Shown in pieces: positions 10,879 to 63,581 of a stretch of DNA of 64,000 nt (positions within the stretch are counted from its first letter, which is position 1; each line of letters begins with the position of its first letter). A program made the position numbers and the translations under genes. The stretch spans positions 310,001 to 374,000 of the forward strand of contig NZ_BSTR01000002.1 in the NCBI RefSeq assembly GCF_030269645.1, written 5' to 3'. The notes under the pieces were generated by a model. The model was given only the letters and a program-made list of their open reading frames with translations. It had not been told where the DNA came from and did no database searches. Source of the stretch: Actinokineospora sp. NBRC 105648. GTDB taxonomy: Bacteria > Actinomycetota > Actinomycetes > Mycobacteriales > Pseudonocardiaceae.

Positions 10879-11018
10879 CTCGATGGGGTGGTGTGGCTTT
10901 GTTCGGGGAGAAAAGAGGCGCTAGCCTGGTCCCGGCGTGGGTGATCCCTTTCCCACCCGCTTCACCCCGGCGCCTCTTTTCTTAGGGGCCCCGAACAAAG
11001 CCACACCACCCCATCGAG
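10879..11018 (+). repeat. Inverted-repeat element D (diverged member of the 140-bp hairpin family)
   Basis: Left arm 10879-10921 (CTCGATGGGGTGGTGTGG...) pairs with right arm 10970-11018. The right arm carries an extra TAGGGG bulge near 10983-10988 opposite nothing on the left. The 48-base apex contains GCTAGCC and GTGGGTGATCCCTTTCCCAC, itself a hairpin. The same architecture occurs in the elements at 14973, 15211, 43071, 43311 and 63442, but with different, internally compensated stems. It lies between the 3' ends of rbpA and the sensor kinase. Confidence 0.85.
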
Positions 11019-11163
11019 CCCACCGCAGAACCCAGCCGCAAACCCACCGCAGAACCCAGCCGCAAACCCACCGCAGAACCCAGCCGCAAACCCACCGCAG
11101 AACCCAGCCGCAAACCCACCGCAGAACCCAGCCGCAAACCCAGCGCGGAAACAGCCGCAAACC
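11019..11163 (+). repeat. 24-bp tandem direct repeat array
   Basis: About five copies of the unit CCCACCGCAGAACCCAGCCGCAAA in a head-to-tail run, then two degraded copies. It abuts element D on one side and the 3' end of the sensor kinase on the other. The unit has no spacer, so it is not CRISPR. Confidence 0.9.
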
Positions 11164-11173
11164 CACAAAGCGG

Positions 11174-12502
11174 CTAGACCGACAACGGATACCGAGCCCG
11201 CACCGAGAACCCACCCTCCGGCGTCGGGCCGGCGTCGAAGCTGCCACCCAGCAACCCCGCCCGCTCCCGCAGCCCCAACAACCCGTGCCCGCCGGACGGG
11301 AACCCCGCCGACAGCCGTCGCGGTCGGTCGTTGCTGATCTCCACCACCAGCGCGTCCGCCGAGGCCCGCACCCGCACCGACGCCCGAGCCCCCGCGGCGT
11401 GCTTGCGGACGTTCGTCAGCGCCTCCTGCACCGTCCGGTAGGCCGCGCGGGAGACCGGGCCGGGCAGATTGGACGGACAGCCGTCCATGGCCAGTCGGAC
11501 GTCGCTGCCGTGCACCAGCTCCGGGATGTCCTCCAGGCCCGGCTGGGCCTCGTCGTCGTCCACGCCGGAGCGCAGCACGCCCACCAGTTCGCGCAGTTCC
11601 TCCAGCGTCCGCGTGCTCAGCGTCCGGATGGTCTCGGCGGCCTCACGGGTGGCCTGGTCGCGCACGTCAACCTGCATCGCGCCCGCCTGCATGGCGATCA
11701 GGGTGACCTGGTGGGACACCACGTCGTGCATCTCGCGGGCGAGCTTGGCGCGTTCGGCGGAGCGGACGGTGGCCGCGTAGAGCCGCTTCTCCCGCTCGCG
11801 GCTGCGCGCGAGCTGCAGGATCCGGGTGGACAGCTCCTTCCGCACTGTGATCAACATCCCGATGGCCACCGGCATCCCGGCGACCAGCACGCCGTAGATC
11901 ACGTCCAGGAAGTGTTGCCGCCAGCCCAGTTCGAGGAACTCCGACCAGGGCCACAAGATGAACCGGCACAGTCCCACCAGGACGGCGCCGACCACGGTGC
12001 GCCAGCTCAGCAGGTGCCGCTTGGCCAGCGCGCCCAGCGCCATCATCGCCGCGAGCTGGGACCAGCCCGCGAAGAAGCCGGGGATGGTGATCAGCACCCC
12101 CACGAACGGCACGTGCCTGCGCAGCAGCATCGCCGGGACCGCCAGCCAGCACAGCCAGATCGAGTACACCGGCGCGGTCTGCGGGATCACCAGCCACACG
12201 TCCAGCGCGGCCACCACGACCGCGAGCACGTCGGAGGACACGTCGCGGGCCCGCTGGCTCGCGCGCAGCCCGGCCAGCCCGCGGGGCAACCGCAGGCCGG
12301 GGAGCCGGACCCGGTGCCGGACCGGCACCACCCGCTCCGGGGTGATCAGGGGCGCGACCAGCGCGGTACCTCCTCGTTCCTCGGTTGCCGAGTGTTCGCG
12401 CAGCTCAGACCGGTCGTGCGCGCCCGCTCGCTGGCGGGGCAGCCCGTCCTGGGTTGTAGCATTCTCCCGGTCCTGGGCCTGCCCGCTCTGGCGCTGTGGC
12501 AT
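11174..12502 (-). CDS. NarL-type sensor histidine kinase, orphan
   Basis: About 442 residues from the ATG at 12502 (MPQRQSGQ), which has AGGAAGG upstream; an in-frame ATG at 12544 is an alternative. After a hydrophilic N-terminus come roughly four or five membrane segments (starting near VLAVVVAALDVWLV), then the HisKA_3 dimerisation helix with the phospho-acceptor in LAREMHDVVSHQV, and a HATPase domain ending in GHGLLGLRERAGLLGG. Such kinases usually sit beside a LuxR-type response regulator, but none is next to it here. The signal is unknown. Confidence 0.9.
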   Translation of the reverse strand: MPQRQSGQAQDRENATTQDGLPRQRAGAHDRSELREHSATEERGGTALVAPLITPERVVPVRHRVRLPGLRLPRGLAGLRASQRARDVSSDVLAVVVAALDVWLVIPQTAPVYSIWLCWLAVPAMLLRRHVPFVGVLITIPGFFAGWSQLAAMMALGALAKRHLLSWRTVVGAVLVGLCRFILWPWSEFLELGWRQHFLDVIYGVLVAGMPVAIGMLITVRKELSTRILQLARSREREKRLYAATVRSAERAKLAREMHDVVSHQVTLIAMQAGAMQVDVRDQATREAAETIRTLSTRTLEELRELVGVLRSGVDDDEAQPGLEDIPELVHGSDVRLAMDGCPSNLPGPVSRAAYRTVQEALTNVRKHAAGARASVRVRASADALVVEISNDRPRRLSAGFPSGGHGLLGLRERAGLLGGSFDAGPTPEGGFSVRARYPLSV

Positions 12503-12647
12503 GGATCGCCCTTCCTGCGGCGACGTGCTGCACGGTGTCGTCACCCATCAAGACAGACAACACCGGCCGCGGGACGGCGCGTGGTCAACAACTGTGCGCG
12601 AGCAAACGCTCGGTCCCCGATCGGAGCAGGGAGAGGAGTCCACTCGA

Positions 12648-14720
12648 TTGCGCACGCTCATCATCGACAACCACGACTCCTTCACCTACAACCTCTACCA
12701 GGGTCTGGCGGCGCTCAGTGGCGCGCGTCCCACGGTGGTCCGCAACGACGACGACTGGGACATCGGCGGTCTGGTCGACTTCGACAACGTGGTCATCTCG
12801 CCCGGCCCCGGGCACCCGGGCGTGTGGCGCGACATCGGGCTCAGCCGCGCGGTGCTCGCCGCCGCCCGGCAGCCGCTGCTCGGGGTCTGCCTCGGCCACC
12901 AGGGACTCTGCCTGCTGGCCGGTGCCCGGGTGGCGCACGCCCCCGAGGTGCGCCACGGAAGGCTCTCCGCGGTCCACCACGACGGCCGCGACCTGTTCGC
13001 CGGCCTGCCCTCGCCGATGCGGGTCGTGCGCTACCACTCGCTCGCCGTCGACGACCTGCCCGCCGAACTCGAGGCGACGGCGTGGAGCGACGACGGCGTC
13101 CTGATGGGCGTGCGCCACCGCGAACGCCCCGCGTGGGGCGTGCAGTTCCACCCGGAGTCGGTGTGCACCGAGCACGGGACCGACCTGTTGGCCAACTTCG
13201 CCCGCCTGACCCGGCAGTGGTGGTCCGACCACCCGGGGCAGGTAGTCGTGTCCGCCCCGGCGCAGTTGCCCATCGCGCCCCCGGCCCCCGTCGAACCGTT
13301 CGCGCGGGTCTTGGTCGAGCGGCTCACCGTCGCTGTCACCGCGGAGGAGGCGTTCGCCGCGGTCTACCGGGATTCCCCGCACGCGTTCTGGTTGGACAGC
13401 GCGGCGGGCGGCCGGTTCTCCTTCCTCGGCGACGCAAGCGGACCACACGCCCGGATCGCCACGGCCGATGTCGCGGCGGGCACCGTCACGATCACCTCGG
13501 CCGCCGGCCGCGAACTGGTCCACGGCGAGTTCCTGTCCTGGCTCGACGCCGACCTCGCCGCGCGCCCGGTGGCGGTCCCGGACCTGCCGTTCGGCTTCGC
13601 CCTGGGCTGGGTCGGCTACCTGGGCTACGAGCTCAAGGCGGAGTGCGGCGGCCAGGCCGCCCACCGCGCCGAGGACCCCGACGCCCAACTCGTCTTCGCC
13701 GACCGCGCACTGGTTTTCGACCACGCGACCGGCGAGGTCTACCTGCTCGCGCTGGCCGGTGACGAACCGGCGGCCCGCCAGTGGCAGAGCGACACAGCCG
13801 CCAGGCTGGTCGCGTTGGCCGCCGGCCCGGCCCCCACCGCCCCGGTCGACACCGGCGTCGTGGCCGGCCCGCTCACGGCGCGACACGACCGGGACGACTA
13901 CCTGACGATGATCGCCCGCAGCCAGGTCGCCATCGGCGACGGCGAGACCTACGAGGTCTGCCTCACCAACCAGCTCACCGCGCCCGCGACCATGGATGTG
14001 TGGCAGGCCTACCGCTACCTGCGCCGCGCCAGCCCCGCACCCTTCGGCGCACTGCTGCGCTTCGGCGGCCTGTCGGTGCTGAGCACCTCGCCCGAGCGCT
14101 TCCTCTCCATCACCGCCGACGGCGCCGTGGAGTCCCGCCCGATCAAGGGGACCCGCCCACGCGGACGCACACCGGACGAGGACACCGCACTCCGCCACGA
14201 CCTGGCCGAGGGGGAGAAGGACCGCGCGGAGAACCTGATGATCGTCGACCTGGTCCGCAACGACCTCGGCCGCTACGCCGAGATCGGCTCGGTGCACGTG
14301 TCCGGGCTCTTCGAGGTCGAGACCTACGCGACGGTCCACCAAATGGTCAGCACGGTCCGCGCCCAACTCGCCGAGGGCGTCTCAGCGGTCCGCTGCGTCC
14401 GCGCGGCATTCCCCGGCGGTTCGATGACCGGCGCACCCAAAGAACGCACCATGCGAATCATCGACCACCTCGAACGCGGCCCACGCGGCATCTACTCCGG
14501 CGCCATCGGCTATTTCTCCCTCACCGGCGCCGCCGACCTGAGCGTCGTGATCCGCACACTGGTGGCCCGACCAAACCGGGTCTCCTTCGGAGTGGGCGGC
14601 GCAGTGATCGCCCTGTCAGACCCGGCGGCGGAGTTCGAGGAGACGGCGGTCAAGGCCACCACAATGCTCGACCTACTCGACGCCGAGTTCCCTGGCCGGG
14701 TCCCGGCGACAGGCGGCTAG
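12648..14720 (+). CDS. pabAB: Aminodeoxychorismate synthase, fused PabA-PabB
   Basis: 690 residues. Makes 4-amino-4-deoxychorismate from chorismate and glutamine, the first step to p-aminobenzoate for folate or secondary metabolites. The N-terminal class I glutamine amidotransferase has Cys81 in GVCLGHQG and the His/Glu of FHPES. The C-terminal chorismate-binding domain has PIKGTRPRG, the motif that separates aminodeoxychorismate synthase from anthranilate synthase, and GSMTGAPKERTM. The start is TTG at 12648 with GAGAGGAG upstream; it begins directly with the conserved RTLIIDNHDSFTYN. No pabC is adjacent. Divergent from the sensor kinase. Confidence 0.95.
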   Translation: MRTLIIDNHDSFTYNLYQGLAALSGARPTVVRNDDDWDIGGLVDFDNVVISPGPGHPGVWRDIGLSRAVLAAARQPLLGVCLGHQGLCLLAGARVAHAPEVRHGRLSAVHHDGRDLFAGLPSPMRVVRYHSLAVDDLPAELEATAWSDDGVLMGVRHRERPAWGVQFHPESVCTEHGTDLLANFARLTRQWWSDHPGQVVVSAPAQLPIAPPAPVEPFARVLVERLTVAVTAEEAFAAVYRDSPHAFWLDSAAGGRFSFLGDASGPHARIATADVAAGTVTITSAAGRELVHGEFLSWLDADLAARPVAVPDLPFGFALGWVGYLGYELKAECGGQAAHRAEDPDAQLVFADRALVFDHATGEVYLLALAGDEPAARQWQSDTAARLVALAAGPAPTAPVDTGVVAGPLTARHDRDDYLTMIARSQVAIGDGETYEVCLTNQLTAPATMDVWQAYRYLRRASPAPFGALLRFGGLSVLSTSPERFLSITADGAVESRPIKGTRPRGRTPDEDTALRHDLAEGEKDRAENLMIVDLVRNDLGRYAEIGSVHVSGLFEVETYATVHQMVSTVRAQLAEGVSAVRCVRAAFPGGSMTGAPKERTMRIIDHLERGPRGIYSGAIGYFSLTGAADLSVVIRTLVARPNRVSFGVGGAVIALSDPAAEFEETAVKATTMLDLLDAEFPGRVPATGG

Positions 14721-14942
14721 GACGTGGAACGGACGAGAATCCCGTCCCACAAGCAAACCGCAGCGGATAGGCCGACCTCGCTGGAACGCAACAGGTTCCC
14801 GCCCTCGCTGGTACCGCAGCGGATAGGCCGACCCCGCTGGAACGCAACAAGCTCTCGCCCCCGCTGGAACGCAACAGGATCCCCGATCCCGCCCGCACAC
14901 AGGAGAGTCCCGTCCCCCAGCACACCGCAGCGGTGAGGCCGA
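14721..14942 (+). repeat. Short interspersed repeats upstream of composite element 1
   Basis: Two alternating motifs recur. One resembles ACCGCAGCGGATAGGCCGA (near 14757, 14812, 14923) and the other CCCCGCTGGAACGCAACAGG (near 14777, 14831, 14869, and the arm at 14943). They are separated by unrelated 5-30 base stretches. The same two motifs, in either orientation, flank the related elements near 42880-43060 and 63590-63710. No gene is apparent. Confidence 0.8.
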
Positions 14943-14972
14943 CCCCGCTGGTACGCAATGCCCGTTACGGAT

Positions 14973-15110
14973 GCTCGATCTAGTGGACTCGCTTCGTGTG
15001 GGGGGAGAGTGCCGCTAAACTTGCCGTGGGTGGGGATGCCCTTACCTGCCCTTTTCTCTCCACCGCGGTGCTCCAGGGGCCCCGCACGAAGTGAGTTCAC
15101 TAGATCGAGC
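14973..15110 (+). repeat. Inverted-repeat element A1
   Basis: Ends GCTCGATCTAGTGG and TTCACTAGATCGAGC pair as the outer stem up to GTGTGGGG/CCCCGCAC. The right side then has the unpaired AGGGG bulge, followed by the inner stem AGTGCCGC with GCGGTGCT. The apex contains CTAAACTTG and GATGCCCTT. Confidence 0.88.
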
Positions 15111-15210
15111 CCTGCTTGTAAATCGGGCAGCCCATGCGATGAGCCGCCGTAGAAGGTCGACCGTAGGTCGGTGTGCGGCACACCCTCCGAGCTGCCCGAG
15201 TAAGAGCGGG

Positions 15211-15350
15211 GCTCGATTGGCTGGACTGCCTTCGCGTGGGGCCCCTAGAGCACCGCGGTGGTGAAAAAAGGGCGGGTGAAGGGCATCCCCACCACACGGC
15301 AAGTTTAGCGGTGCTCTCCCCCCACACGAAGGCAGTCCACCCAATCGAGC
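15211..15350 (-). repeat. Inverted-repeat element B1
   Basis: Same plan as A1 but in the opposite orientation. Outer stem sequence is GCTCGATTGG.TGGACTGCC with its partner GGCAGTCCA.CCAATCGAGC. The bulge reads CCCCTA on the plus strand, the inner stem is AGCACCGC with GCGGTGCT, and the apex keeps CAAGTTTAG and AAGGGCATC (minus-strand CTAAACTTG and GATGCCCTT). The core of about 90 bases is identical to that of the element at 63442. Confidence 0.88.
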
Positions 15351-15545
15351 ACAAACGTAACGGGTGTTGCGTACCAGCGGGCTCGGCTTTTAGAGATTTA
15401 GAGATTCGGGATTTGGGGATGTCAGGACTAGAGAAGTCCTCGTGCCGCGCTTCGTGGTGCCGTGCTGTTGGCCGCGCTCTAGTCGTTCGGCTGGCCGACA
15501 TCCAGACGTCACGGGTTGTCTCTCTCGGGGGGCCACGATCCGGCC

Positions 15546-17600
15546 ATGACCCCATCCTTGTCGTTACGGGCCGGTGCCGCGGTGGTCGCCGCGCTCGCCT
15601 GCCTGACCGCCGTGCCGCTGGCGGCGACCGCCGACCCGGCCGGGCATCACCCGCGTCGTGACTTCGATCTGCAGGCCCACCGCGGTGGTATCGGTCTGCG
15701 GGTGGAGAACAGTCTCAGCTCGTTCGGCAATGCCCTTCGGCTCGGGGTGAGCACGTTGGAGCTGGACGTGCAGATCACCGAGGACGGCCAGGCCGTGGTG
15801 ACCCACGATCGCAAGGTCGACGGCCGCAAGTGCCGCGACACCGCCCCGGTCACCGCGGGGGACACCGAGTTCCCCTATGTCGGCAAGTACGTCAACACCC
15901 TGACCCTGGCCCAGGTGCGCACGCTCGACTGCGGTTCGCAGCGGCTGCCGGACTTCCCGAAGCAGGAGCTCTCGCCCGGTCAGCGGATCCCGTTGTTGCG
16001 CGAGGTGTTCGCGCTCGCCAAGCGCTACCGTGCCGATGACGTGCGGTTCAATGTGGAGACCAAGGTCGAGGCGGGTGCCCCGCAGGAGACCGCGCCGCGG
16101 GAGCAGTTCGTCCAGGTGACGGCGCGTGAGATCCGGGACGCGGGTGTGTCCGACCGGGTGAGTGTCCAGAGCTTCGACTGGGGTGCCCTGATCCGGATGC
16201 GGCAGGTGGCGCCGCGGTTGCCGCTGGTGGCGTTGACGAACTACGACTTCCTGCAGACCGGTCAGCCCGGCAAGTCGCCGTGGCTGGGTGGGCTGGACAT
16301 CGACGACTTCGGTGGCGATCCGATCAAGGCGGTGAAGTCCTTCGGTGCCAGTGCCTTCTCGCCGGTGCACGGCTTCCCGCAGGGCGGCTCGGTGAACGAC
16401 CCGGGCTACCGGCCCTACGTCACCGCGGAGCTGGTCCGCTCGGCGCACCGCAACGGTATCAAGGTCATCCCGTGGACCGTCGACGACGTGCCCACCATGG
16501 CCAAGCTCATCGACGACGGGGTCGACGGCCTGATCACCGACTACCCCGACCGGCTGCGCACCCTGTTGGCGCAGCGCGGTTTCCGGCTGCCGCGGGCCTA
16601 CGCCTCGCCGTTCGACGTCCAGGGCCACCGCGGTGCCCGGTCGGTGCGGCCGGAGAACACCCTGGCGGCGTTCCGCTACGCGCTGGCGAACCCCGCTGTG
16701 TCCACTTTGGAGCTCGACACCGGGATCACCGAGGACGGCCAGGTCGTCGTGCTGCACGACCGCGCGGTCAACGGCTCGCACTGCGTCGACACCGCGCCGG
16801 TCCGGGTGGGTGACCCGGAGTTCCCCTACGTCGGCAAGCTGGTGCGCGACCTGACGCTGGCGCAGCTCAAGACGATCGACTGCGGTTCCAAGACGCTGCC
16901 GGACTTCCCCCGGCAGCAGGCGGTCCCGGGGGAGCGGATCCCGACGCTGGCCGAGGTGTTCGCCGCGGTGCGGGCGAGCGGGCGGGCGGACATCGGTCTC
17001 AACATCGAGACCAAGATCAGCCCCACCGCGAACGACACCGTCCGCTACGAGGTGTTCACCCGCAAGGTCGTCGGCGAGATCGCCCGCGCGGGCTTCACCC
17101 GGCGGGTGACCCTGCAGTCGTTCGACTGGCGCACCATCCAGCTGTCCAAGCGCATCGAGCCGCGCCTGGCGACGGTGGCGCTGGTGTGGCAGTACGGCCC
17201 GCAGGAGTGCGCGTCGATCGCCGACGAGTGCTCGTTGCGGGCGGTCTACGGTGACCCGTCGGTGAAGTCGCCGTGGACCGGTGGCCTGGACTGGTGGCGG
17301 ACCCGCGACCTGGGCAGGCTGGTGCGGCAGTCGGGCGCGGACACGGTGTCGGCCAACTGGCAGGTGCACGACCCCCGTCAGTCCACTGTGGTCAGCCCGG
17401 ACTGGTACCTGCGGCAGGACCCGAGCTACTTCCACGGCCCGGACGTCGCGGGCCTGCACCGCGCGGGCCTCAAGGTCGTCCCCTACACCGTGGACGACGA
17501 GCCCACCATGCAGCGCGTCATCGACCTCGGTGTCGACGGCCTGATCTCCGACGACCCCGACCTGCTGGTCGCGGTCGCGCGGAAGAACGGCCTGCGGTAG
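15546..17600 (+). CDS. Secreted glycerophosphodiester phosphodiesterase with two tandem GDPD domains
   Basis: 684 residues, about twice the single-domain length. GDPD enzymes release glycerol 3-phosphate from glycerophosphodiesters, here outside the cell given the signal peptide (residues 1-29, ending LAATADPAG). Domain 1 (about 38-345) has AHRGG, VEN, LELDVQITEDG and a later His; domain 2 (about 358-684) repeats them as GHRGARSVRPENT, LELDTGITEDG. Both keep the HR, EN, ExD and H catalytic set, so both may be active. Start is the ATG at 15546, which begins the signal peptide; there is no clear ribosome-binding site. Extra paired Cys residues in both halves suggest disulfides. Confidence 0.9.
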   Translation: MTPSLSLRAGAAVVAALACLTAVPLAATADPAGHHPRRDFDLQAHRGGIGLRVENSLSSFGNALRLGVSTLELDVQITEDGQAVVTHDRKVDGRKCRDTAPVTAGDTEFPYVGKYVNTLTLAQVRTLDCGSQRLPDFPKQELSPGQRIPLLREVFALAKRYRADDVRFNVETKVEAGAPQETAPREQFVQVTAREIRDAGVSDRVSVQSFDWGALIRMRQVAPRLPLVALTNYDFLQTGQPGKSPWLGGLDIDDFGGDPIKAVKSFGASAFSPVHGFPQGGSVNDPGYRPYVTAELVRSAHRNGIKVIPWTVDDVPTMAKLIDDGVDGLITDYPDRLRTLLAQRGFRLPRAYASPFDVQGHRGARSVRPENTLAAFRYALANPAVSTLELDTGITEDGQVVVLHDRAVNGSHCVDTAPVRVGDPEFPYVGKLVRDLTLAQLKTIDCGSKTLPDFPRQQAVPGERIPTLAEVFAAVRASGRADIGLNIETKISPTANDTVRYEVFTRKVVGEIARAGFTRRVTLQSFDWRTIQLSKRIEPRLATVALVWQYGPQECASIADECSLRAVYGDPSVKSPWTGGLDWWRTRDLGRLVRQSGADTVSANWQVHDPRQSTVVSPDWYLRQDPSYFHGPDVAGLHRAGLKVVPYTVDDEPTMQRVIDLGVDGLISDDPDLLVAVARKNGLR

Positions 17601-17653
17601 GGATCACCCGCGCTAGCGCCCCTTCCCCGCACCAGTGCGGGTTCCGGGGAAAT

Positions 17654-17687
17654 CGGTGGCCTTCCCCCGCCCAGGGGAAGGCCACCG
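17654..17687. terminator. Bidirectional terminator between GDPD gene and trxB
   Basis: A 14-bp perfect stem (17654-17667 with 17674-17687, arm GGTGGCCTTCCCC) with a 6-nt loop between two convergent genes. Confidence 0.75.
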
Positions 17688-17696
17688 CCGCCCGGA

Positions 17697-18605: not shown

Positions 18606-18775
18606 ACCGCCAACCGTGGCGCGCGTCACCGGGGCGCGGCCAGTGCCTACCGGGTATGCCGCCGGGTTATGCGCCCGCGCGCGATAACCCGCCGACAGGG
18701 GATGTTGGCAGTGCCCGGGTCCGCCGGGCCGAAGAAGACTCCACGGCATCCCTGCACACGAATGGAGTCCCCAAC

Positions 18776-20200: not shown

Positions 20201-20258
20201 TTCCACAGTGGACGGCAGGAGTCGGCGGCGGCCCCCGTCCGGGCCGCCGTTTCCCGAG

Positions 20259-42794: not shown

Positions 42795-43040
42795 CCCACG
42801 AGCCACGAGCCACGACCCACGACCGCAGCCGGGAATCGCATTGTCCTGAATGGACTGAGGAGCCTCGTGGCTGGTACGCAAGAAAATCCGACCCCGCTGG
42901 AACGTACCCGGAACCCCACCCCGCTGGTGGGCAACAGAATCCCGACCCCGCCAAGCCGCAGTGAAAGGCCGCTCCCTCAGCCACCCAACCGCAGCGAAAG
43001 GCCGCCCCTTCCCACCGCCCAACCGCAGCGGGTAGGCCGA
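42795..43040 (+). repeat. Short interspersed repeats upstream of composite element 2
   Basis: The same two motif families as at 14721-14942 recur: CCCCGCTGGAACGTACC, CCCCGCTGGTGGGCAACAG, and three versions of CCGCAGCGAAAGGCCG. No gene is apparent. Confidence 0.8.
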
Positions 43041-43070
43041 CCCCGCTGGTACGCATGTCCCGTTACGGAT

Positions 43071-43209
43071 GCTCGATCTGGTGGACTCGCTTCGTGTGGG
43101 GGGAGAGTGCCGCTAAACTTGCCGTGGGTGGGGATGCCCTTACCCTGCCCTTTTCTCTCCAACGCGGTGCTCTAGGGGCCCCGCACGAAGCGAGTTCACT
43201 AGATCGAGC
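43071..43209 (+). repeat. Inverted-repeat element A2
   Basis: Nearly identical to A1: GCTCGATCTGGTGGACTCGC pairs with GCGAGTTCACTAGATCGAGC, TAGGGG bulge on the right arm, inner stem AGTGCCGC with GCGGTGCT, apex with CTAAACTTG and GATGCCCTT. Confidence 0.88.
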
Positions 43210-43310
43210 CCCTCGTCTTTTCCTCGGGCAGCCCAAGCGATGAGCCGCCAACATGGTCGACCGTAGGTCGGTGTGCGGCACACCGTCCGAGCTGCCCGAG
43301 TAAAGCGGAG

Positions 43311-43449
43311 GCTCGATTGGCTGGACTGCCTTCGCGCGGGGCCCCTAGGCGACCGCGTGGGGAAAAAGCGTGGGGAGAAGGGCATCCCCACCACTGGTCA
43401 AGTTTAGCGGTCGCCTCCCCCCACACGAAGGCAGTCCACCCAATCGAGC
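43311..43449 (-). repeat. Inverted-repeat element B2
   Basis: Inverted relative to A2. Outer arms match B1, but the inner stem is different and still paired (GGCGACCGC with GCGGTCGCC, versus AGCACCGC with GCGGTGCT in B1), a compensatory change of several base pairs. The loop side has also drifted while CTAAACTTG and GATGCCCTT remain. Confidence 0.88.
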
Positions 43450-43481
43450 ACTGGCGTAGCGGGTGTTGCGTACCAGCGGGG

Positions 43482-54992: not shown

Positions 54993-55309
54993 GGCGACGC
55001 CGACCTGCCGCACCCGCGGCAGGCCCCTGATCGACTCCCCGCACGGCCGTCTCCGCGTGCGTCTCCCTCGTCCGGTGCGCGGTGCGCTGTGCTGGGGCCA
55101 TTGGTGCGTGGACCCCGTCGCCGTGCTCGCTCCGGGTACCTCGGTTCGCGCCCGTCCCGCCGCTTTGTGGCCCATTGCCGGTCGGCTCCGCGACCGGTTC
55201 CGTTCGTGTCCTTACTGTGATCAACTTCCGGTGGGGCCGCGCGTCTCTTCTGGTGTGAGGCCGAAATGGACCTCGCGACGAATATCTATTCTCTGGGGAG
55301 AGAAGAAGA
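54993..55309. other. Intergenic region after ctaB
   Basis: Contains a short terminator-like hairpin (CCTGCCGC 55004-55011 with GCGGCAGG 55016-55023) and the upstream region of the next gene. No gene seen. Confidence 0.55.
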
Positions 55310-55921: not shown

Positions 55922-55979
55922 CAACAGGGGGACCCGCGGGGCGGGCACGGACGCAGGTCCGTGCCCGCCCCGCGGCCGT

Positions 55980-56633: not shown

Positions 56634-56700
56634 GTCGACCTTCCCCTTCCGTTGGACAAACGGGTGGGGTGATGGTAGAGGCCACGGCGTCGGCCGGGGG

Positions 56701-57342
56701 TCAGATCCGCCTGGTCAGCTCCTCCAGTCGCGCCTCCACCGGCACGTGCCGGTGCCCGACGCCGGTCGCCGGGTCGTAGGACAGGCTCCACCGGCTCACC
56801 GGCCGGGACTTGACCAGGAACGTCATCGTGCCGTCCACCGCCCACGGGATCCGGTGGAACTCCTCGGCCATCAGGAACCCGGACTCGCCGACCACGCAGT
56901 CGTGGGTGTGCGTCCGGGTCGCGGCGGCGATCAGCCCGGTGCCCGGGTCGAGGGTGGTGCTGAACCGCTCGTGCCGGTAGCCGCCGCGCAGGATGGCGGT
57001 GCAGAAGTGGTACCGGTGGTTGTGCACCGAGTCGGCGTAGCCGGGCCGCCAGTCCCGCTGCGGTTTGTACTCGTGCAGCCAGAAGGTGAACGGCTCGTCG
57101 TCGTTGTCGCGCAGGCACCAGGCGAAGTGCGTGGTGGTCTCCCGGGAGCGGGCCACCAGCGCCGCGGCGCGCCGCTGGTCCAGGTCCACCAGGTGCCTGC
57201 GCAGCACGGCGCGCAGCACCGCACCGTCCACCCAGGACTCGACACCCGCGTGCGCGGCGGCCCACCGGCGCCGGGTGAGGTCTAGCTCGCGCATCCGCTC
57301 GGCCAGGTCGGACAGGGCGGGGACCACGGTGGACACGGGCAT
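56701..57342 (-). CDS. Cupin-like protein of unknown function
   Basis: 213 residues. Residues about 80-195 look like a metal-binding beta-barrel: SVHNHRYHFCTAILRGGYRHERF (His107, His109, His112, Glu125 possible ligands), then GESGFLMAEEFHRIPW and TFLVKSRPVSRWSL. I infer a cupin or cysteine-dioxygenase-like fold without being able to confirm it. The N-terminal 70 residues are helical. Its ATG shares a base with the stop of the two-TM protein gene, so the two are coupled. Confidence 0.6.
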   Translation of the reverse strand: MPVSTVVPALSDLAERMRELDLTRRRWAAAHAGVESWVDGAVLRAVLRRHLVDLDQRRAAALVARSRETTTHFAWCLRDNDDEPFTFWLHEYKPQRDWRPGYADSVHNHRYHFCTAILRGGYRHERFSTTLDPGTGLIAAATRTHTHDCVVGESGFLMAEEFHRIPWAVDGTMTFLVKSRPVSRWSLSYDPATGVGHRHVPVEARLEELTRRI

Positions 57343-58346
57343 CAGCTCTCAAGCTCGGCTTTGGCGGAGAACTCCTGGCGGAACGCGTGGAACCGGGCCT
57401 GCAGGTCGGCGAACTGCGCGTCGGTCAGCCGGGTGCCGGTGATCGTGGCGAACTGCGCCAGGAACTCCTCCCGGCTGGTGTCCGGTGTGATCAGGAAGCG
57501 GGGCGCGCCACGCGCGGCGTGCACCCGGGCGAACTCGGCGCGCTGCATGCCGTAGATGAACGAGCCCTCCGAGAAGCGCAGCGTGCGCGGGTAGAGCGAC
57601 GGGGCGCCCGCCACCGCGCTGTAGAGGGTGATCCACACGCTGTCGTCGAAGAGCTCCACCCGGTCCAGCGGCGGGTCGGCGATCACCGTGACGTCGATCG
57701 AGTCGCACCGCGCGCGGGCCAGGTAGAGCCCGACGAGCCCGATCCGGATCTCCTCGTGCAGGGTCGCCTGGATCCGCTCGTAGTCGGCGCTGGCGCCCTG
57801 GTGCCGGGCCAGGTGCCGGGCCCGGCCGCTGATCGCGCCGCGCTCACCCGGGTCGGCCAGCACCGCGCGCACCTCCCAGCCGGAGGGGGACAGCAGCAGC
57901 CGGGCGGCCGCGTAGCGCCCGGAGAAGCCGCGGAAGAGCAGCTGCCGGGTGCGCCGCAGGTCGTCCATGATCAGCGCGTTGAACGCCGGATCGGGGTCGG
58001 TGCTCGCCTCGAACACGTGCGTGGGGAAGAACTCCTGGTTCAGCGACCGGTACTCGGCGGACAGCTCGCGCAGCGCGCGCCTGCTCTCCTCGACCACCGG
58101 CGCCACCAGGGCGCGCTGCGCGGCGCCCGCGGTGAGCAGGGTCTGCCCGAACCCGACGACGGCGGATACCATCGTCCCGGTGCCGAGCGCGGTGAGCAGG
58201 TTCTTCGCCGTTCCGGCGTCGACGGCACTCGACGCCCACATGGAGACTCCCGACACCACCACCAGGACCGCCAGCAGCAGTCCGGTGCGCGTCCAGAAGA
58301 TCTCCTGGATCGGGTGAGTGCGGAGGCCTTTGGCGTCCGCGGGCAC
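57342..58346 (-). CDS. Two-TM membrane protein of unknown function
   Basis: 334 residues. Two adjacent membrane helices near the N-terminus (about 20-38 and 47-70), then a soluble cytoplasmic region of about 260 residues: helical 75-115, then LLFRGFSGRYAAARLLLS, DSIDVTVIADPP, DSVWITLYSAVAG and FLITPDTSREEFL, which reads like an alpha/beta fold. No known family recognised; the layout is like membrane-anchored sensors or effectors. First gene of the operon with the cupin-like and HD genes. Divergent from the FKBP gene. Confidence 0.65.
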   Translation of the reverse strand: MPADAKGLRTHPIQEIFWTRTGLLLAVLVVVSGVSMWASSAVDAGTAKNLLTALGTGTMVSAVVGFGQTLLTAGAAQRALVAPVVEESRRALRELSAEYRSLNQEFFPTHVFEASTDPDPAFNALIMDDLRRTRQLLFRGFSGRYAAARLLLSPSGWEVRAVLADPGERGAISGRARHLARHQGASADYERIQATLHEEIRIGLVGLYLARARCDSIDVTVIADPPLDRVELFDDSVWITLYSAVAGAPSLYPRTLRFSEGSFIYGMQRAEFARVHAARGAPRFLITPDTSREEFLAQFATITGTRLTDAQFADLQARFHAFRQEFSAKAELES

Positions 58347-58505
58347 GGCGCGTCACCTCCTCGACGGACGCCCGTAAGGACGCGAAAAGTATCCGAACGG
58401 GCGCGCACAGTCACTTTACGCCGCACCGGCGGTGAATGGATTGCGAATATCGGGTGAGGGAACCACGGGGGGTAGACCGGACGCCGGCCCGCGGACCGGG
58501 CCACC

Positions 58506-58511
58506 TAAGCT
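58506..58511 (+). promoter_or_regulatory. Candidate -10 box of a leaderless FKBP transcript
   Basis: TAAGCT lies 8 bases before the ATG at 58520, without a ribosome-binding site. The same hexamer precedes the small gene at 63015. Confidence 0.45.
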
Positions 58512-58519
58512 CCGGGGCC

Positions 58520-59128
58520 ATGCGCAATGTCGGCAAGATCATGATCGTGGCGGCGGTGGGCCTGGGCCTTGCCGCGTGTGCGAACTCCGAGCAGGCCTCG
58601 ACCCTGCCGGTCGGCGGCTCCACGGTGAGCGTCAAGGAGGCGCCCGCGAGCTCCGCCGCGGCCCCCACCAAGAGCGCCCCCACCACCACGAAGCCCGCCG
58701 CCTCCACCCCGGCGGGCCCGGAGTGCACGGTCGCGGACATCAAGGTCGACGGTGCCCCGGGCAGCAAGCCGACGATCACCGTCCCGGACACCTGCTCGCC
58801 GCCGAAGGCCCTGCTGAGCAAGGACCTGGTGGTGGGCACCGGCGCCGAGGTCAAGGCCGGTTCGACCATGCAGACCCACTACGTGCTGGTCACCTGGTCG
58901 AACAAGGAGGAGAAGGACTCCTCGTGGAAGCGCGGCCAGCCCTTCCCGCTGGAGAACGTCGGCCAGGCCCAGGTCATCGACGGCTGGAACGAGGGCCTGA
59001 TCGGGATGAAGCAGGGCACCCGCAGGCTGCTGGTGGTCCCGCCGGAGAAGGGCTACGGCCAGGGCGGCAACGGCATCGAGCCCAACGAGACCCTGGTGTT
59101 CGTCGTCGACGCGGTCGAGGTCAGCTGA
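58520..59128 (+). CDS. FKBP-type peptidyl-prolyl isomerase lipoprotein
   Basis: 202 residues. A lipoprotein signal with lipobox LAAC (Cys20) is followed by a Ser/Thr/Pro/Ala-rich linker to about residue 68 and then an FKBP domain: LLSKDLVVGTGAEVKAGSTM, QVIDGWNEGLIGMKQGTRR, VVPPEKGYG. It would help protein folding at the outer face of the membrane. A 12-bp terminator follows. Confidence 0.92.
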   Translation: MRNVGKIMIVAAVGLGLAACANSEQASTLPVGGSTVSVKEAPASSAAAPTKSAPTTTKPAASTPAGPECTVADIKVDGAPGSKPTITVPDTCSPPKALLSKDLVVGTGAEVKAGSTMQTHYVLVTWSNKEEKDSSWKRGQPFPLENVGQAQVIDGWNEGLIGMKQGTRRLLVVPPEKGYGQGGNGIEPNETLVFVVDAVEVS

Positions 59129-59151
59129 CCTCCCGCACCCGTTCTCCCACG

Positions 59152-59180
59152 CGGCGCGCCCCGATCACCGGGGCGCGCCG
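59152..59180. terminator. Bidirectional terminator between FKBP and MMPL genes
   Basis: CGGCGCGCCCCG (59152-59163) pairs perfectly with CGGGGCGCGCCG (59169-59180), 5-nt loop, between convergent genes. Confidence 0.75.
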
Positions 59181-59230
59181 TGCCTGTCTCCCGACCGTGA
59201 GCTCGCTCCGTCGACCTCAAGCGGCCAACC

Positions 59231-61315
59231 TCAAGCCGCCGACCCGCTGTGCTGGTCCAGCTTGCTCGGCCACCAGATCTTCCGTCCGATGTCGACGGTC
59301 AGCGCGGGCACCAGCAGCGAGCGCACCAGCAGCGTGTCCAGCAGCACGCCGAAGGCCACCAGGAACGCGATCTGGGCCAGGAACAGGATCGGCAGCACCG
59401 AGAGCGCCGCGAACGTGGCCGCCAGCACCACCCCGGCCGAGGTGATCACCCCGCCGGTCACCCGCAGGCCGAGCAGCGCGCCCTCCCGGGTGCCGTGCCG
59501 CAGCGCCTCCTCGCGCACCCGCGTCATCAGGAAGATGTTGTAGTCGATCCCCAGCGCCACCAGGAAGACGAACGCGAACAGCGGCACGCTCGGGTCCGCG
59601 CCGGGGAAGTCCAGGACGTGGTTGAACACCACAGCGCTCACCCCCAGGGTCGCGGCGAAGGAGAGCACCACGGTGGCGATCAGCAGCAGCGGGGCCAGCA
59701 GCGCGCGCAGCAGCAGCGCCAGGATGAGGAAGATCACCAGCAGCACCACCGGGATGATCACCGTCCGGTCCCGCAGCGAGTTCGTCCGCACGTCGAGCTG
59801 GTTGGCCGTCGGTCCGCCGACGAGCGTGCCGCCCACGTCGTGGGTGCGGTCGCGCAGCCGCTGCACGGTGTCCAGCGCGGCGGCGCTGTCGGCGGCGTCG
59901 CGCAGCACGGCGGTGACCTCGACCCGGCCGTCGACCACCTTGGGCCCGGCCCCGTCGACCCGCACGGCCGCGTCCGCCACGCCCTCGGTCTCCTTGGCCA
60001 GCCGGACGACCTGGTCGGCGCTGCCCGCCGCGGTGACCAGCACGGCGGGCGAGCCGGTGCCGCCGGGGAAGTGCCGGGCCAGGGTCTCCTGCCCGGTCAC
60101 CGAGTCCACCTTGGTCAGGAAGATCTGGCTCTGCGCGACCCCGTCGGCCTTGAGCTGCGGCAGGAACGCCACCCCGACCAGCAGCACCAGCGTGCTCACC
60201 ACCCAGATCAGCCGCGGCCGCCGACCGACCAGTGCCGAGACCCGGCCCCAGATCCCGCCGCTCGCCTTGTCCGTGCTGCCGAACTCGGGGCGGAACGGCC
60301 AGAACGCGGTGCGGCCGAACAGGACCAGCACCGCGGGCAGGAAGGTGAGCGCGGCGGCCAGCGAGGCGGCGATGCCGATCGCGGCCACCGGGCCGAGGCT
60401 GGAGTTGGAGCGCAGGTCCGAGAGCAGCAGGCAGAGCAGGCCCGCGATCACGGTGCCCGCCGAGGCGGCGATCGGCCCGGCGGCGGCGCGCAGCGCCACC
60501 CGCATCGCCTCGGCCTTGGTCTCGTGCCGCCGCAGCTCCTCGCGCAGCCGGGCGATGAGCAGCAGCGAGTAGTCGGTGGCCGCGCCGAAGACCAGGATGA
60601 ACAGGATGCCCTGGCTCTGGCCGTTGAGGGTGAGCACGTCGTTCTTCGCCAGCAGGTAGACCGCCAGCACCGCCAGGCACAGCGCCAGCCCGGCGGTCAG
60701 CAGCACCACGACCGGCAGGATCGGGCTGCGGTAGACCGCGATCAGGATCAGCGCGACGACCCCGGCCGTCACCAGCAGCAGCAGGCCGTCGATGCCGCCG
60801 AAGGCCTCGGTGAAGTCCGCGATCAGCCCGGCGGGCCCGGTCACGTGCGCGGACAGGCCCTCGGGCAGCTCGCCCAGCTGGGCACGGATGTCGGTGACCA
60901 GCGCGCGCAGCTGCTTGCCGTTGTTCGGCAGCAGCGCCACCGCCTGCGCCGCCCGCGCGGGGGTGTCCTGTGTGGACGCCTGCGGCCTGCTCACCGGACC
61001 GATCCCGGGCAGCTCGCCGACCTTGCCCAACGCGGTGGCGATCGCGTCGTTGTCCGACTGGGTCAGTCCGCTCGCGCGCTCGAAGACGAGCACCGCGGGC
61101 AGGGCGTTGCTGTCCGCGAAGGACTTCTGCAGCTCGCTGACCCGGGTGGACTCCGCCGAGGACGGCAGGAACGCGGCGTTGTCGTTGCGCTGGACCGTGG
61201 ACAGCTGGCCCTGCAGCGGTCCGCCGATGCCGCCGACGACCAGCCACGCGATGATCAGCAGAGCGGGCCAGAGCAGGCGCGCCGCGCGGGAGCCGGCGGT
61301 ACGGTTGTCGTTCAT
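59231..61315 (-). CDS. MMPL/RND-family exporter
   Basis: 694 residues, ATG at 61315. Two repeats, each a membrane helix, a large external loop and a cluster of five helices: first half ends near residue 360, second starts near 385. FGAATDYSLLLIARLREEL and ALGIDYNIFLMTRVREEA carry the Asp of the proton-relay helices typical for MmpL/YdfJ-type transporters. Exports lipids or drugs. Regulated presumably by the divergent MarR protein. Confidence 0.92.
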   Translation of the reverse strand: MNDNRTAGSRAARLLWPALLIIAWLVVGGIGGPLQGQLSTVQRNDNAAFLPSSAESTRVSELQKSFADSNALPAVLVFERASGLTQSDNDAIATALGKVGELPGIGPVSRPQASTQDTPARAAQAVALLPNNGKQLRALVTDIRAQLGELPEGLSAHVTGPAGLIADFTEAFGGIDGLLLLVTAGVVALILIAVYRSPILPVVVLLTAGLALCLAVLAVYLLAKNDVLTLNGQSQGILFILVFGAATDYSLLLIARLREELRRHETKAEAMRVALRAAAGPIAASAGTVIAGLLCLLLSDLRSNSSLGPVAAIGIAASLAAALTFLPAVLVLFGRTAFWPFRPEFGSTDKASGGIWGRVSALVGRRPRLIWVVSTLVLLVGVAFLPQLKADGVAQSQIFLTKVDSVTGQETLARHFPGGTGSPAVLVTAAGSADQVVRLAKETEGVADAAVRVDGAGPKVVDGRVEVTAVLRDAADSAAALDTVQRLRDRTHDVGGTLVGGPTANQLDVRTNSLRDRTVIIPVVLLVIFLILALLLRALLAPLLLIATVVLSFAATLGVSAVVFNHVLDFPGADPSVPLFAFVFLVALGIDYNIFLMTRVREEALRHGTREGALLGLRVTGGVITSAGVVLAATFAALSVLPILFLAQIAFLVAFGVLLDTLLVRSLLVPALTVDIGRKIWWPSKLDQHSGSAA

Positions 61316-61363
61316 GGCGGGGCTGGCCTCTCGACGCGGGAGCGGCGGACGTGCTGGCCAGAT

Positions 61364-61387
61364 CATTGTTCAGCAGGCTTAACGATG
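61364..61387. promoter_or_regulatory. Candidate MarR operator between MMPL and marR genes
   Basis: CATTGTT (61364-61370) and AACGATG (61381-61387) are inverted half-sites with one mismatch, in an AT-rich patch midway between the divergent starts. Confidence 0.5.
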
Positions 61388-61406
61388 CAACTCGGGAGGG
61401 CGTCCG

Positions 61407-61874
61407 GTGAGCGGTGACACCGACGCGGTATCCAGCTGGCCGACCGGCAGGCTGCTGTCGGTGGCCGCCCGCCTGGTGGAGCACTCCTGGCAGGAGTTCC
61501 TGGCCGCCCGCGGCCTGACCCACGCCGGTCTGATCACCCTGCACCTGCTCGCCGACGGGCCGCGCGCGCAGCGGGCGCTCGCGCACGGCGCCAAGGTCAC
61601 CGACCAGACCATGAGCCGCACCGTGGAGCGCCTGGCCCGGGCGGGGTTCGTCGAGCGCGAGACCGACCCGGTCGACCGCCGCCGCACCCTGGTCGCCACC
61701 ACCGAGGCGGGGCGCGCGGTGCACCGCGAGGCCCTGCGCGCCGAACGCGAGGACCCGCAGGTGCTCGGCGCGGTGCGCGACTACGAGGCGTTCCGGCTCC
61801 AGCTGGTGGACTTGATCACCGCTCTGGGTGTCGGGGGCGCGGCGGCCGTCCGCGCCCCCGACACCGAGGACTGA
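61407..61874 (+). CDS. MarR-family transcriptional regulator
   Basis: 155 residues, GTG with GGGAGGG upstream. Winged helix-turn-helix with the family's recognition helix and wing: KVTDQTMSRTVERLARAGFVERETDPVDRRRTLVATT. Likely represses itself and the MMPL exporter until a ligand binds. Convergent with the oxidoreductase gene (17-base gap). Confidence 0.93.
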   Translation: MSGDTDAVSSWPTGRLLSVAARLVEHSWQEFLAARGLTHAGLITLHLLADGPRAQRALAHGAKVTDQTMSRTVERLARAGFVERETDPVDRRRTLVATTEAGRAVHREALRAEREDPQVLGAVRDYEAFRLQLVDLITALGVGGAAAVRAPDTED

Positions 61875-61891
61875 AGTGCCAACACGGGGGA

Positions 61892-62863
61892 CTACGGGAG
61901 CAGCAGCAGCTTCCCGGTGGTGCGGCGGCCCTGGAGGTCCTCGTGTGCCCGCTGGGCCTCGGCCAGCGGGTACCGCCCGCCGATGGTGATCTTCAGCGCG
62001 CCGGTGGCGATCGCGCCGAACAGCTCGTCGGTGCGCCACCGCAGCTCCTCCGGCGTGGCGATGTAGGGCGCCAGCGACGGCCGGGTGAGGTAGATCGACC
62101 CCGCCTGGTTGAGCCGCTGCGGGTCGACCGGCGGCACCGGTCCGCTCGACGCGCCGAAGAGCACCAGGTAGCCGCGCGGGCGCACGACCGACAGGCTGCC
62201 GTCGAACGTGGTCTTGCCGACCCCGTCGTAGACCGCGGCCACACCCTCCCCGCCGGTGAGCTCCCGCGTCCTGGCGGCGAAGTCCTCCTCGGTGTAGCGG
62301 ATGACCTCGTCGGCCCCCGCGGCGCGGGCCAGCTCCTCCTTCGCGGCGGTGGACACGGTGCCGATCACCCGCGCGCCGCGCGCCTTGGCCAGCTGGACCA
62401 GGATCAGCCCGACCCCACCGGCCGCCGCGTGCACGAGCACGGTGTCGCCCTGCTGGACCGGGTAGGTCGACACGGCCAGGTAGTGCGCGGTGAGCCCCTG
62501 CAACAGCGTGGCCGCCGCGGTCTCGTCGTCGACGCCCTCGGGCACCGGCACCGCCGAGGCGGCGGGCACCACGACCTGCTCGGCGTAACCGCCCGGCACC
62601 GACGTCCAGGCCACCCGGTCGCCGACGGCGAACCCGTCGACGCCCGCGCCGACCGACCGCACGGTGCCCGCCCCCTCCAGGCCGGGCACGAACGGCACCG
62701 GAACCGGGTACTGCCCGGACCGCTGGTAGGTGTCGATGTAGTTCACCCCGGCGGCGGCCACCTGGACCAGCAGCTCACCCGCGCCGGGGGACCGGTCGGG
62801 CACCTCCGCGTACTCCAGGACCTCGGGGCCACCGTTGCGCGACACCAGCACTGCCTTGGGCAC
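61892..62863 (-). CDS. NADPH:quinone oxidoreductase (zinc-independent MDR family)
   Basis: 323 residues. The alcohol-dehydrogenase-like N-terminal domain includes AAGVNYIDTYQRSGQYPV, and the Rossmann domain the AAAGGVGLILVQLAKARGARVIGTV motif. The family reduces quinones by one electron. A quinone oxidoreductase beside ctaA is a common actinobacterial arrangement. ATG with GAGGAGA upstream. Confidence 0.94.
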   Translation of the reverse strand: MPKAVLVSRNGGPEVLEYAEVPDRSPGAGELLVQVAAAGVNYIDTYQRSGQYPVPVPFVPGLEGAGTVRSVGAGVDGFAVGDRVAWTSVPGGYAEQVVVPAASAVPVPEGVDDETAAATLLQGLTAHYLAVSTYPVQQGDTVLVHAAAGGVGLILVQLAKARGARVIGTVSTAAKEELARAAGADEVIRYTEEDFAARTRELTGGEGVAAVYDGVGKTTFDGSLSVVRPRGYLVLFGASSGPVPPVDPQRLNQAGSIYLTRPSLAPYIATPEELRWRTDELFGAIATGALKITIGGRYPLAEAQRAHEDLQGRRTTGKLLLLP

Positions 62864-63002
62864 GGTCGTCTCCTCTTGCGCTGTCGGACGTTCTCGCCCG
62901 GGCCAACCACGGCGCCGGGGCGGCTGTTCCCGCCCCGGCCGTGTCCCAGGATGCAGGAGTGGCCCGGCTCACGGTCGCCGGGTGGCCCGCACGGGTGAGC
63001 CC

Positions 63003-63008
63003 TAAGCT
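63003..63008 (+). promoter_or_regulatory. Candidate -10 box of a leaderless transcript
   Basis: TAAGCT lies 6 bases before the GTG at 63015; no ribosome-binding site. Confidence 0.4.
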
Positions 63009-63014
63009 CGGGTC

Positions 63015-63323
63015 GTGGCTGATGAGAGCGATTCCCCGCAGGTCCCGGTGAAGGCCGAACGGTCGGCTGCCGCGTTCGTGGCCGCGCACGGGAAGCCCGC
63101 GCGGGCGGTGGTGGAGAACATCGGACGGGCCGGGGCGCGGGTCGTGCTCGTGGGCGCTGATGGCGCTCTGGGTGATGTGATCGTGGCCGGCGTGGAAGTT
63201 GGGGCCGCGTTGGTGGAGCGGGTTGAGGGGCTTGAGGCGGGGGAGTGGGACCGGGAGACGGTCGCCGCTACGAAGATCGGGGCTGGGCATCGGCGCAAGA
63301 TGGCGGCGCGGGTGCGCGGCTAG
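63015..63323 (+). CDS. Small conserved hypothetical protein
   Basis: 102 residues, acidic N-terminus, then VLVGADGALGDVIVAGVEVGAALVERVEGLEAGEWDRE-type alternating strands and a basic end (HRRKMAARVRG). No domain recognised; similar small proteins are common next to ctaA in Pseudonocardiales as far as I recall. GTG start in a leaderless context. Coding bias fits a real gene. Confidence 0.7.
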   Translation: MADESDSPQVPVKAERSAAAFVAAHGKPARAVVENIGRAGARVVLVGADGALGDVIVAGVEVGAALVERVEGLEAGEWDRETVAATKIGAGHRRKMAARVRG

Positions 63324-63441
63324 CTCGCTGGCTGCTCGGGGTTGAGTGCGTTTGCGCGTTGCCGTCTTCGTTGCCCGGGTCGCGAGGGTGGGCTCGGTCT
63401 GGTGGGTTTTGCTGCTTTTCGTTGCCCGGGTTTCGAGCGGG
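63324..63441. other. T-rich spacer with a degenerate middle-hairpin relic
   Basis: GTTGCCCGGGTTTCGAGCGG next to element C resembles the GCTGCCCGAGTAAGAGCGG that precedes B1 and B2, and an earlier GTTGCCCGGGTCGCGAG repeats it. This suggests that a left portion of a composite was lost here. Confidence 0.5.
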
Positions 63442-63581
63442 GCTCGATCTAGTGAACTCGCTTCGTGTGGGGCCCCTAGAGCACCGCGGTGGTGAAAAAA
63501 GGGCGGGTGAAGGGCATCCCCACCACACGGCAAGTTTAGCGGTGCTCTCCCCCCACACGAAGCGAGTCCACTAGATCGAGC
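63442..63581 (-). repeat. Inverted-repeat element C (A-type arms, B-type core)
   Basis: Arms GCTCGATCTAGTGAACTCGC and GCGAGTCCACTAGATCGAGC match A1/A2, while the core of about 90 bases from GGGCCCCTAGAGCACCGC to CCCACACGAAG is identical to that of B1, 48 kb away. It has the TAGGGG bulge and paired inner stem of the family. Confidence 0.88.

Follow-up and report, generated by a model that had tools for sequence, protein, structure and literature searches.

Dispersed, high-copy hairpins with a strand-specific fold in Actinokineospora, and their link to DUF222-HNH genes in three other genera of the Pseudonocardiaceae

The stretch analysed here (the window) is 64 kb of DNA from Actinokineospora sp. 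NBRC 105648, and it holds six hairpin elements of about 140 nt, all of which lie between genes according to our own gene calls, made with a simple frame-plot script. A preliminary description of the window had reported these six intergenic elements, and we found all six where it placed them. When we searched the window at E ≤ 0.01 with a covariance model built with five of the six copies (R1), we recovered exactly these six places. Copies 2 and 3 (at 14973 and 15211) and copies 4 and 5 (at 43071 and 43311) form inverted pairs about 100 bp apart, and copies 1 and 6 are single. The hairpins, the parts of copy 1 and the adjoining sequences are listed below, with scores from the covariance model in bits.

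10878..11019, + strand: hairpin copy 1, single, divergent subtype (fold; 121.7 bits)
10878-10908/10989-11019, + strand: outer stem of copy 1 (fold)
10909-10921/10970-10982, + strand: inner stem of copy 1 (fold)
10983..10988, + strand: unpaired TAGGGG of copy 1, on the 3' arm between the inner and outer stems (fold)
11019..11162, no strand: array of 24-nt tandem repeats directly adjoining copy 1 (repeat listing)
14943..14971, no strand: outer flank CGCTGGTACGCAA..CCCGTTACGG, an inverted match to the flank of copy 6 (by eye)
14972..15111, + strand: hairpin copy 2, A type, left member of an inverted pair (129.5 bits)
15112..15209, no strand: spacer of pair 2/3, about 100 nt, with its own CGGGCAGC/GCTGCCCG stem (by eye)
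15210..15351, – strand: hairpin copy 3, B type, right member of the inverted pair (146.2 bits)
43070..43210, + strand: hairpin copy 4, A type, left member of the second inverted pair (138.5 bits)
43211..43309, no strand: spacer of pair 4/5, organised like 15112-15209 (by eye)
43310..43450, – strand: hairpin copy 5, B type, right member of the second inverted pair (140.6 bits)
63441..63582, – strand: hairpin copy 6, single (148.2 bits)

In each of the six copies, we found a 31-bp outer stem ending in GGGG/CCCC, an asymmetric loop, an inner stem and an apex with CGCTA and GATNCCCTT; an unpaired (T)AGGGG is present on the 3' arm only, replaced by CAGGGG in the copy at 14973. This reproduces the fold first proposed, and the folding energies of the six lie 9.8 to 12.2 standard deviations below those of 60 dinucleotide shuffles each. 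The opposite strand also folds strongly, and copy 1 folds slightly better there (–102.5 vs –101.7); energy alone therefore cannot name the folded strand. The apex had been described as shared by the copies, and CGCTA and GATNCCCTT are indeed present in the window copies; however, GATNCCCTT is not conserved in other species.

Compensated stem changes around constant unpaired parts, also part of the preliminary description, are borne out in two larger alignments. In 13 sequences from five genomes, the 41 pairs are paired in 98.9% of cases as compared to 83.4% after shuffling, 23 of them vary on both sides, and none of 500 shuffles reaches the covariation score, in a control that leaves the kinship between the sequences in, and relatedness inflates covariation scores. 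In 19 sequences from several genera, the most distant of which came from a model that rewards pairing, 98.5% are paired as compared to 75.2% after shuffling, and 17 of 24 pairs vary on both sides; this count of two-sided changes is matched by 8 of 500 shuffles and the covariation score by none. Two unpaired parts recur across genera, a TAARCT-like bulge that follows the inner stem and an AGRGG in the 3' arm, and in most copies AGRGG stands opposite GG in the asymmetric loop. The 3' bulge follows the adjacent stem. The recurrence of the TAARCT-like bulge and the match of bulge and stem depend less on pairing than the scores do. In a cross-genus listing of 38 rows, which we read by eye and in which three rows are wrongly trimmed, GGGG/CCCC stems go with AGGGG in 25 rows and with GGGGT in three, GGAG/CTCC stems go with AGAGG in five of five, and TGGG/CCCA stems go with AGGGT in two; a scripted assignment recovers most of these counts and misassigns several. 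On the most speculative reading, a G/A bulge that changes in step with its stem would form a tertiary contact, such as a purine triplex, or belong to the recognition site.

To identify the folded strand, we counted the non-Watson-Crick cells of the outer stem in 212 copies, a sample that leans towards Actinokineospora diospyrosa (G015) and the genomes G000 and G005. There are 485 such cells, namely 400 G·U, 17 A·C and 68 others; 337 of the G·U cells come from three positions, and without these the ratio of G·U to A·C is 63 to 9. Deduplication leaves 205 entries, of which one is empty, with 377 G·U, 16 A·C and 86 others, and G·U exceeds A·C in every one of eight genomes. Because the G·U pairs would turn into C·A mismatches on the opposite strand, it is the strand carrying AGRGG in its 3' arm that has stayed able to fold, whether as RNA or as single-stranded DNA. 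The preliminary description had read the pattern as selection on a folded RNA or single-stranded DNA, and in this respect it is partly supported: the strand-specific fold agrees with it, but it does not cover the mobility, inverted pairs, clusters and DUF222-HNH units described below. As it had also held, the hairpins match no known RNA family; Rfam gave no match at gathering score in the window, and among 20 loci only two tRNAs pass, the best other match reaching 47.5 bits against a cut-off of 97. An Rfam microRNA family that matched one long hairpin scored far below its cut-off and was set aside.

The six copies are related, as first described; however, they are only a small part of a high-copy family. 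With the B-type copy 3 as DNA query, we found at least 40 places in the window's own genome, together with 31 inverted partners alongside. R1 finds the family in 15 of 16 Actinokineospora genomes, the wider search that the preliminary description had called for, and in 30 of 297 Pseudonocardiaceae genomes. A shorter model trained on several genera (R2) matches 37 of the 297, in 10 of 46 genera. In the phylum sample, R2 matched the window's own genome and one of 395 others, the latter weakly and nearly equally on both strands; M. tuberculosis (Mycobacterium tuberculosis) itself was not checked. Full-length model matches are 112–152 nt long. In G005, we found at least 142 distinct places in 111 clusters, with multi-copy clusters in both orientations; G006 and G014 gave 64 and 95 matches, in which both strands may be counted. 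There is no replichore strand bias in G005, where 76 copies are on the plus and 66 on the minus strand and the best half-chromosome split fits 81 of 142. One copy used as query against plasmids and phages gave no match. In the genus sample, G012 is the only genome in which neither model finds the hairpin at E ≤ 0.001. Draft contigs of G000 (C9, C46, C60, C64, C16, C51, C62 and C85) end inside or beside hairpins, so assembly may break at hairpins and copy number may be underestimated.

None of the 212 unique copies lies inside a predicted gene. For 176 copies both neighbours are known, and 108 of these lie in convergent, 60 in co-directional and 8 in divergent gaps; in the co-directional gaps, the hairpin points one way 33 times and the other way 27 times. 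We then compared five syntenic 400-kb stretches, picked around one junction already known to bear hairpins. Here convergent gaps account for 35 of the 54 hairpin-bearing junctions and divergent gaps for 2, whereas 282 (17%) of all 1638 junctions are convergent and 283 divergent, and a separate structural descriptor found no hairpin beyond the model's 65.

Hairpin presence varies at conserved gene junctions, and the elements are therefore mobile. Between genomes whose common genes have a median protein identity of 77–93%, the conserved adjacent gene pairs at which hairpins are shared and those at which they differ number 0 and 7 (G000 with G015), 0 and 8 (G000 with G005), 0 and 3 (G000 with G014), 0 and 2 (G000 with G006), 4 and 6 (G015 with G005), 1 and 1 (G015 with G014), 0 and 2 (G015 with G006), 1 and 0 (G005 with G014), 0 and 2 (G005 with G006) and 0 and 1 (G014 with G006). 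A first look had suggested stable positions at common junctions; the comparison of the five stretches finds sharing mainly in the closest pair, with the whiA-gap junction common to more genomes. Filled and empty gaps measure 1204 and 18 bp, 825 and 80 bp, and 540 and 64 bp. At the last of these sites, a stretch that is single-copy in the empty site is apparently a tandem array beside the hairpin in the filled site, so local repeats may grow after insertion. The nearest relative of a copy lies within the same genome for 198 of 204 copies. Counterparts of the whiA-gap junction (window 6032–6524) bear one hairpin in A. diospyrosa, four in G005, two in G014 and two in G150, which belongs to another genus; the window's own junction has none of these hairpins and has a different near-perfect hairpin around 6160–6215. 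A dispersed high-copy repeat family that is real, mobile and strand-specifically folded is thus well supported.

What is new is a link of these hairpins to DUF222-HNH genes, in three genera other than Actinokineospora (g20, g28 and g35). In g20, the hairpins are often inverted pairs that span 1.5–2.0 kb. Among 20 stretches fetched for R2 matches, some of which were picked for two matches 1.5–2.0 kb apart, 13 hold such a pair, and two pairs found earlier bring the number to 15. Fourteen of the 15 enclose one DUF222-HNH gene and no other called gene, and one (L390) encloses no called gene. The enclosed genes have about 340–390 codons, with DUF222 and a C-terminal HNH motif; a few are called from an inner start. 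DUF222 (PF02720) matches four unit proteins with E values of 1.4e-17 to 1.7e-22. HNH families of PHROGs match both unit proteins scanned (best E 4e-8 and 3.5e-4), and the motif is also seen by alignment; the Pfam HNH matches are below the Pfam cut-off only. In the four unit proteins scanned with Pfam there is no RuvC-type domain and no PF01797, we saw no Y1 or tyrosine-recombinase gene in the units, and PADLOC and NCBIfam gave no match. A search of solved structures by sequence gave no real match, as its sole row looks like a His-tag artefact.

We also performed the reverse test and scanned 67 distinct DUF222-HNH loci from 30 genomes, made up of the best matches to the protein profile and some additional ones and partly the same units as above, with R2. 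An upstream hairpin is present at 34 of the 67, in all 34 on the strand opposite to the gene, and 18 of the 34 also have a downstream hairpin, in all 18 on the gene strand; all 52 hairpins are thus oriented consistently. In nine control stretches (33.7 kb) from five g20 genomes, with other conserved genes and empty sites, we found no hairpin. Starting instead from the hairpins, 7 of 39 R2-matched loci of the family and phylum samples hold a DUF222-HNH frame. Hairpin and protein distances are correlated (Mantel r 0.89, reached by none of 999 permutations). One unit (L374) has empty sites as well: where G200 has about 2 kb, the congeners G169, G185 and G215 have 153, 49 and 67 unmatched bp, and G071 has 722 bp without match to the unit. 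DUF222-HNH relatives of the 13E12 type are present in 138 of the 297 Pseudonocardiaceae genomes. Coevolution of the two ends within a unit had also been considered; the signal was gone once a same-genome control was added.

The best current explanation of the structure, copy number, strand bias and turnover that we observe, and of the oriented link to DUF222-HNH genes in three genera, is that the DUF222-HNH protein is the mover, which we put at about an even chance. In full, the proposal, towards which we lean slightly, is that the hairpins are non-autonomous mobile elements, similar to repetitive extragenic palindromic (REP) sequences and bacterial interspersed mosaic elements (BIMEs), whose folded ends are recognised by a DUF222-HNH nuclease that moves them. 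These palindromic elements would have multiplied lineage by lineage at sites free of genes, chiefly where the neighbouring genes converge, and one strand would have to fold, with two stems, the asymmetric loop and the TAARCT-like bulge. In other genera of the family, the hairpins form the two inverted ends of a 1.5–2.0 kb DUF222-HNH unit; the nuclease would recognise the folded ends, cut there and move its own unit and, in trans, lone hairpins, as REP-associated tyrosine transposases (RAYTs) are thought to do for REPs. More tentatively, and with rather less than an even chance of being right, this could be a transposon-like class whose sole enzyme is a DUF222-HNH nuclease acting on strand-specific hairpin ends and whose miniature derivatives fill the intergenic space of a genus. 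If true, the enigmatic 13E12/DUF222-HNH genes would gain a function, the REPtron way of life would have arisen a second time and independently, and an HNH enzyme would be able to sustain a REP-like mobile system in which no known transposase takes part. The oriented hairpins, whether at one end or at both, point to a concrete, testable role for DUF222-HNH proteins, as nucleases that recognise their own folded ends, and the family is a ready covariation set for the study of strand-specific recognition.

Several observations weigh against a DUF222-HNH mover. We found no R2 hairpin at 33 of the 67 DUF222-HNH loci, and the hairpin-linked share is probably lower still and not a family-wide rate, because the profile was built from hairpin-linked proteins. 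The Mantel correlation may reflect no more than how the species are related. Within one unit, the two hairpins are 96% alike, as compared to 98% between units of the same genome, so homogenisation may blur descent, and the difference between median copy identity within genomes (90%) and between genomes (84%) is modest. Comparisons of filled and empty sites by eye show no clear target duplication, and the flanks carry expanded local repeats. Units of this kind are not known to transpose by means of a nuclease alone. The weak point is Actinokineospora, where just two of the 16 genomes have DUF222 (G000 with one gene, G006 with two) and the loci fetched for these three genes hold no R2 hairpin; the genus thus lacks a hairpin-linked DUF222, although its hairpin copies look lineage-specific. 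Therefore, the Actinokineospora hairpins, those of the window included, would be an orphan expansion or be driven by another, unrecognised enzyme. The window pairs also face + then –, whereas the gene-bearing units face – then +. A RAYT (PF01797, Y1) as the general mover was rejected, as just two of the 16 Actinokineospora genomes have one and the window's genome is not among them. The only two PF01797 genes in the genus sample, at L226 (G014) and L227 (G006), both cover the whole profile.

We weighed four other explanations. The hairpins could be cis-acting RNA structures, (bidirectional) terminators or 3'-end stabilisers kept as helpful and scattered by duplication, and both the G·U bias and the excess of convergent junctions (35 of 54, with 2 divergent, against 282 and 283 of 1638) would fit. 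We consider this unlikely, since insertions are in any case tolerated in convergent gaps, the hairpin has no fixed direction in co-directional ones (33 vs 27), no T-tract follows the stem in the copies read, the TAARCT-like and AGRGG parts that recur across genera are superfluous for termination, and turnover is high at conserved junctions. A transcribed hairpin might alternatively work in trans with the HNH protein as a guide-like RNA, in analogy to omegaRNA/HEARO, the RNA partners of IscB. The strand-specific fold, the recurring unpaired motifs that adjoin an HNH gene and the always divergent orientation of the upstream hairpin would fit; however, two inverted copies at both ends look like DNA ends, we recognised no variable guide segment by eye, and the four proteins scanned lack a RuvC-type domain in Pfam, and we regard this explanation as improbable.

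Two further alternatives appear more doubtful still. Upkeep of the palindromes by recombination, in which gene conversion or cruciform repair copies arm onto arm and no fold is selected, is consistent with the resemblance of copies within a genome, and frequent gene conversion is described in the available text of a preprint on M. tuberculosis REP13E12 repeat regions (PMC13061034). Arm copying, however, would keep neither a one-sided bulge nor G·U over A·C (377 to 16), and the bulge goes with the stem (AGGGG with GGGG/CCCC, AGAGG with GGAG/CTCC), which makes this quite improbable. The hairpins could also be an ordinary miniature inverted-repeat transposable element (MITE) derived from a DDE-type insertion sequence, its terminal repeats being long palindromes by chance. 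MITEs are non-coding and dispersed and have inverted arms, and the hairpins, with their empty sites, resemble them in this. In contrast to what is expected of MITEs, we saw no clear target duplication, and no known type of transposase was found. The preliminary description had set one case against its own reading, a plain MITE family whose target duplications are clean and whose transposase is known, and no such family was found. The 361 genes that flank hairpins (mostly in Actinokineospora loci and clustered without annotation) gave no large family, the largest cluster having four members, the DUF222-HNH gene is the only called gene in gene-bearing units, and the internal asymmetric loop and strand bias also speak against such an element. 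The ordinary MITE is therefore disfavoured, and we give it very little probability.

The hairpins and the DUF222-HNH units resemble several known systems in part. The insertion sequences IS200/IS605 and the attC sites use folded single-stranded DNA substrates, in which a one-strand fold with unpaired bases is recognised; the proposed recognition of a one-strand fold is similar, but in the units we saw neither a Y1 nor a tyrosine-recombinase gene. The linked gene, DUF222-HNH, also differs from the Y1 (PF01797) transposase of REPtrons. REPs are high-copy extragenic palindromes, and in the sections available of one account, RAYT genes are described as always lying between two inverted REPs (PMC2817692). 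The hairpins resemble the REP/RAYT system, as far as it is described in the text available (PMC2817692, PMC3733652), in being high-copy extragenic palindromes that occur singly, paired or clustered, with G·T pairs and compensated changes in their stems; among REPs, too, there are repeat classes that have no transposase of their own (CGTC repeats), and the gene unit between two inverted repeat copies, here in other genera and not in the window, is laid out like a REPtron. Unlike the short palindromes with a GTAG/CGTC tag described there, the hairpins are about 140 nt long with two stems and internal loops; their arms are of CTCGAT or GATTTT type, and by eye we saw no such tag. The host is Pseudonocardiaceae, whereas GTAG/CGTC repeats are given for other phyla in the portion available of PMC3733652. 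The layout is shared, but the hairpin differs and the enzyme is unrelated, so the system behaves as a REPtron does without belonging to that family; the hairpins are REP/BIME-like in behaviour, but their sequence is unrelated and their size much greater.

In mycobacteria, DUF222-HNH genes have been described as REP13E12 or 13E12 repeats (PMC10589994, PMC13061034), and the available part of the preprint describes them as lacking a defined biological function (PMC13061034). The units share with REP13E12 the repeated DUF222-HNH genes, with DUF222 and a C-terminal HNH motif in other genera and not in the window; unlike what we describe, the available parts of those accounts (PMC10589994, PMC13061034) mention no hairpin ends. 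Searches of the accessible literature on hairpins of Pseudonocardiaceae or Actinokineospora, actinobacterial palindromes, DUF222-HNH/13E12 genes and HNH genes with hairpin ends pointed to no such system.

By eye, the flank at 14943..14971 resembles the flanks of many further hairpin copies in the same genome, and the spacer type of 15112..15209 recurs between other hairpin pairs there. Degenerate CGCTGGWACGCAAC-type repeats occupy the gaps around the hairpins at 14716–14970, 42888–43065 and 63596–63720, and other species have their own, different arrays around hairpins (both by eye). At junction 295 of G005 (stretch L273-L292), there are several decayed head-to-tail copies, in which the 5' arm is better kept, with an intact copy at the end; this array is absent from A. 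diospyrosa. Intergenic TTGTCCACA repeats, which we take to be actinobacterial DnaA-box-like, occur near hairpins in the 400-kb stretch of A. diospyrosa (L253-L272). The count per 400 kb is 43 there and 20 in G005, and three other species have 3, 4 and 5.

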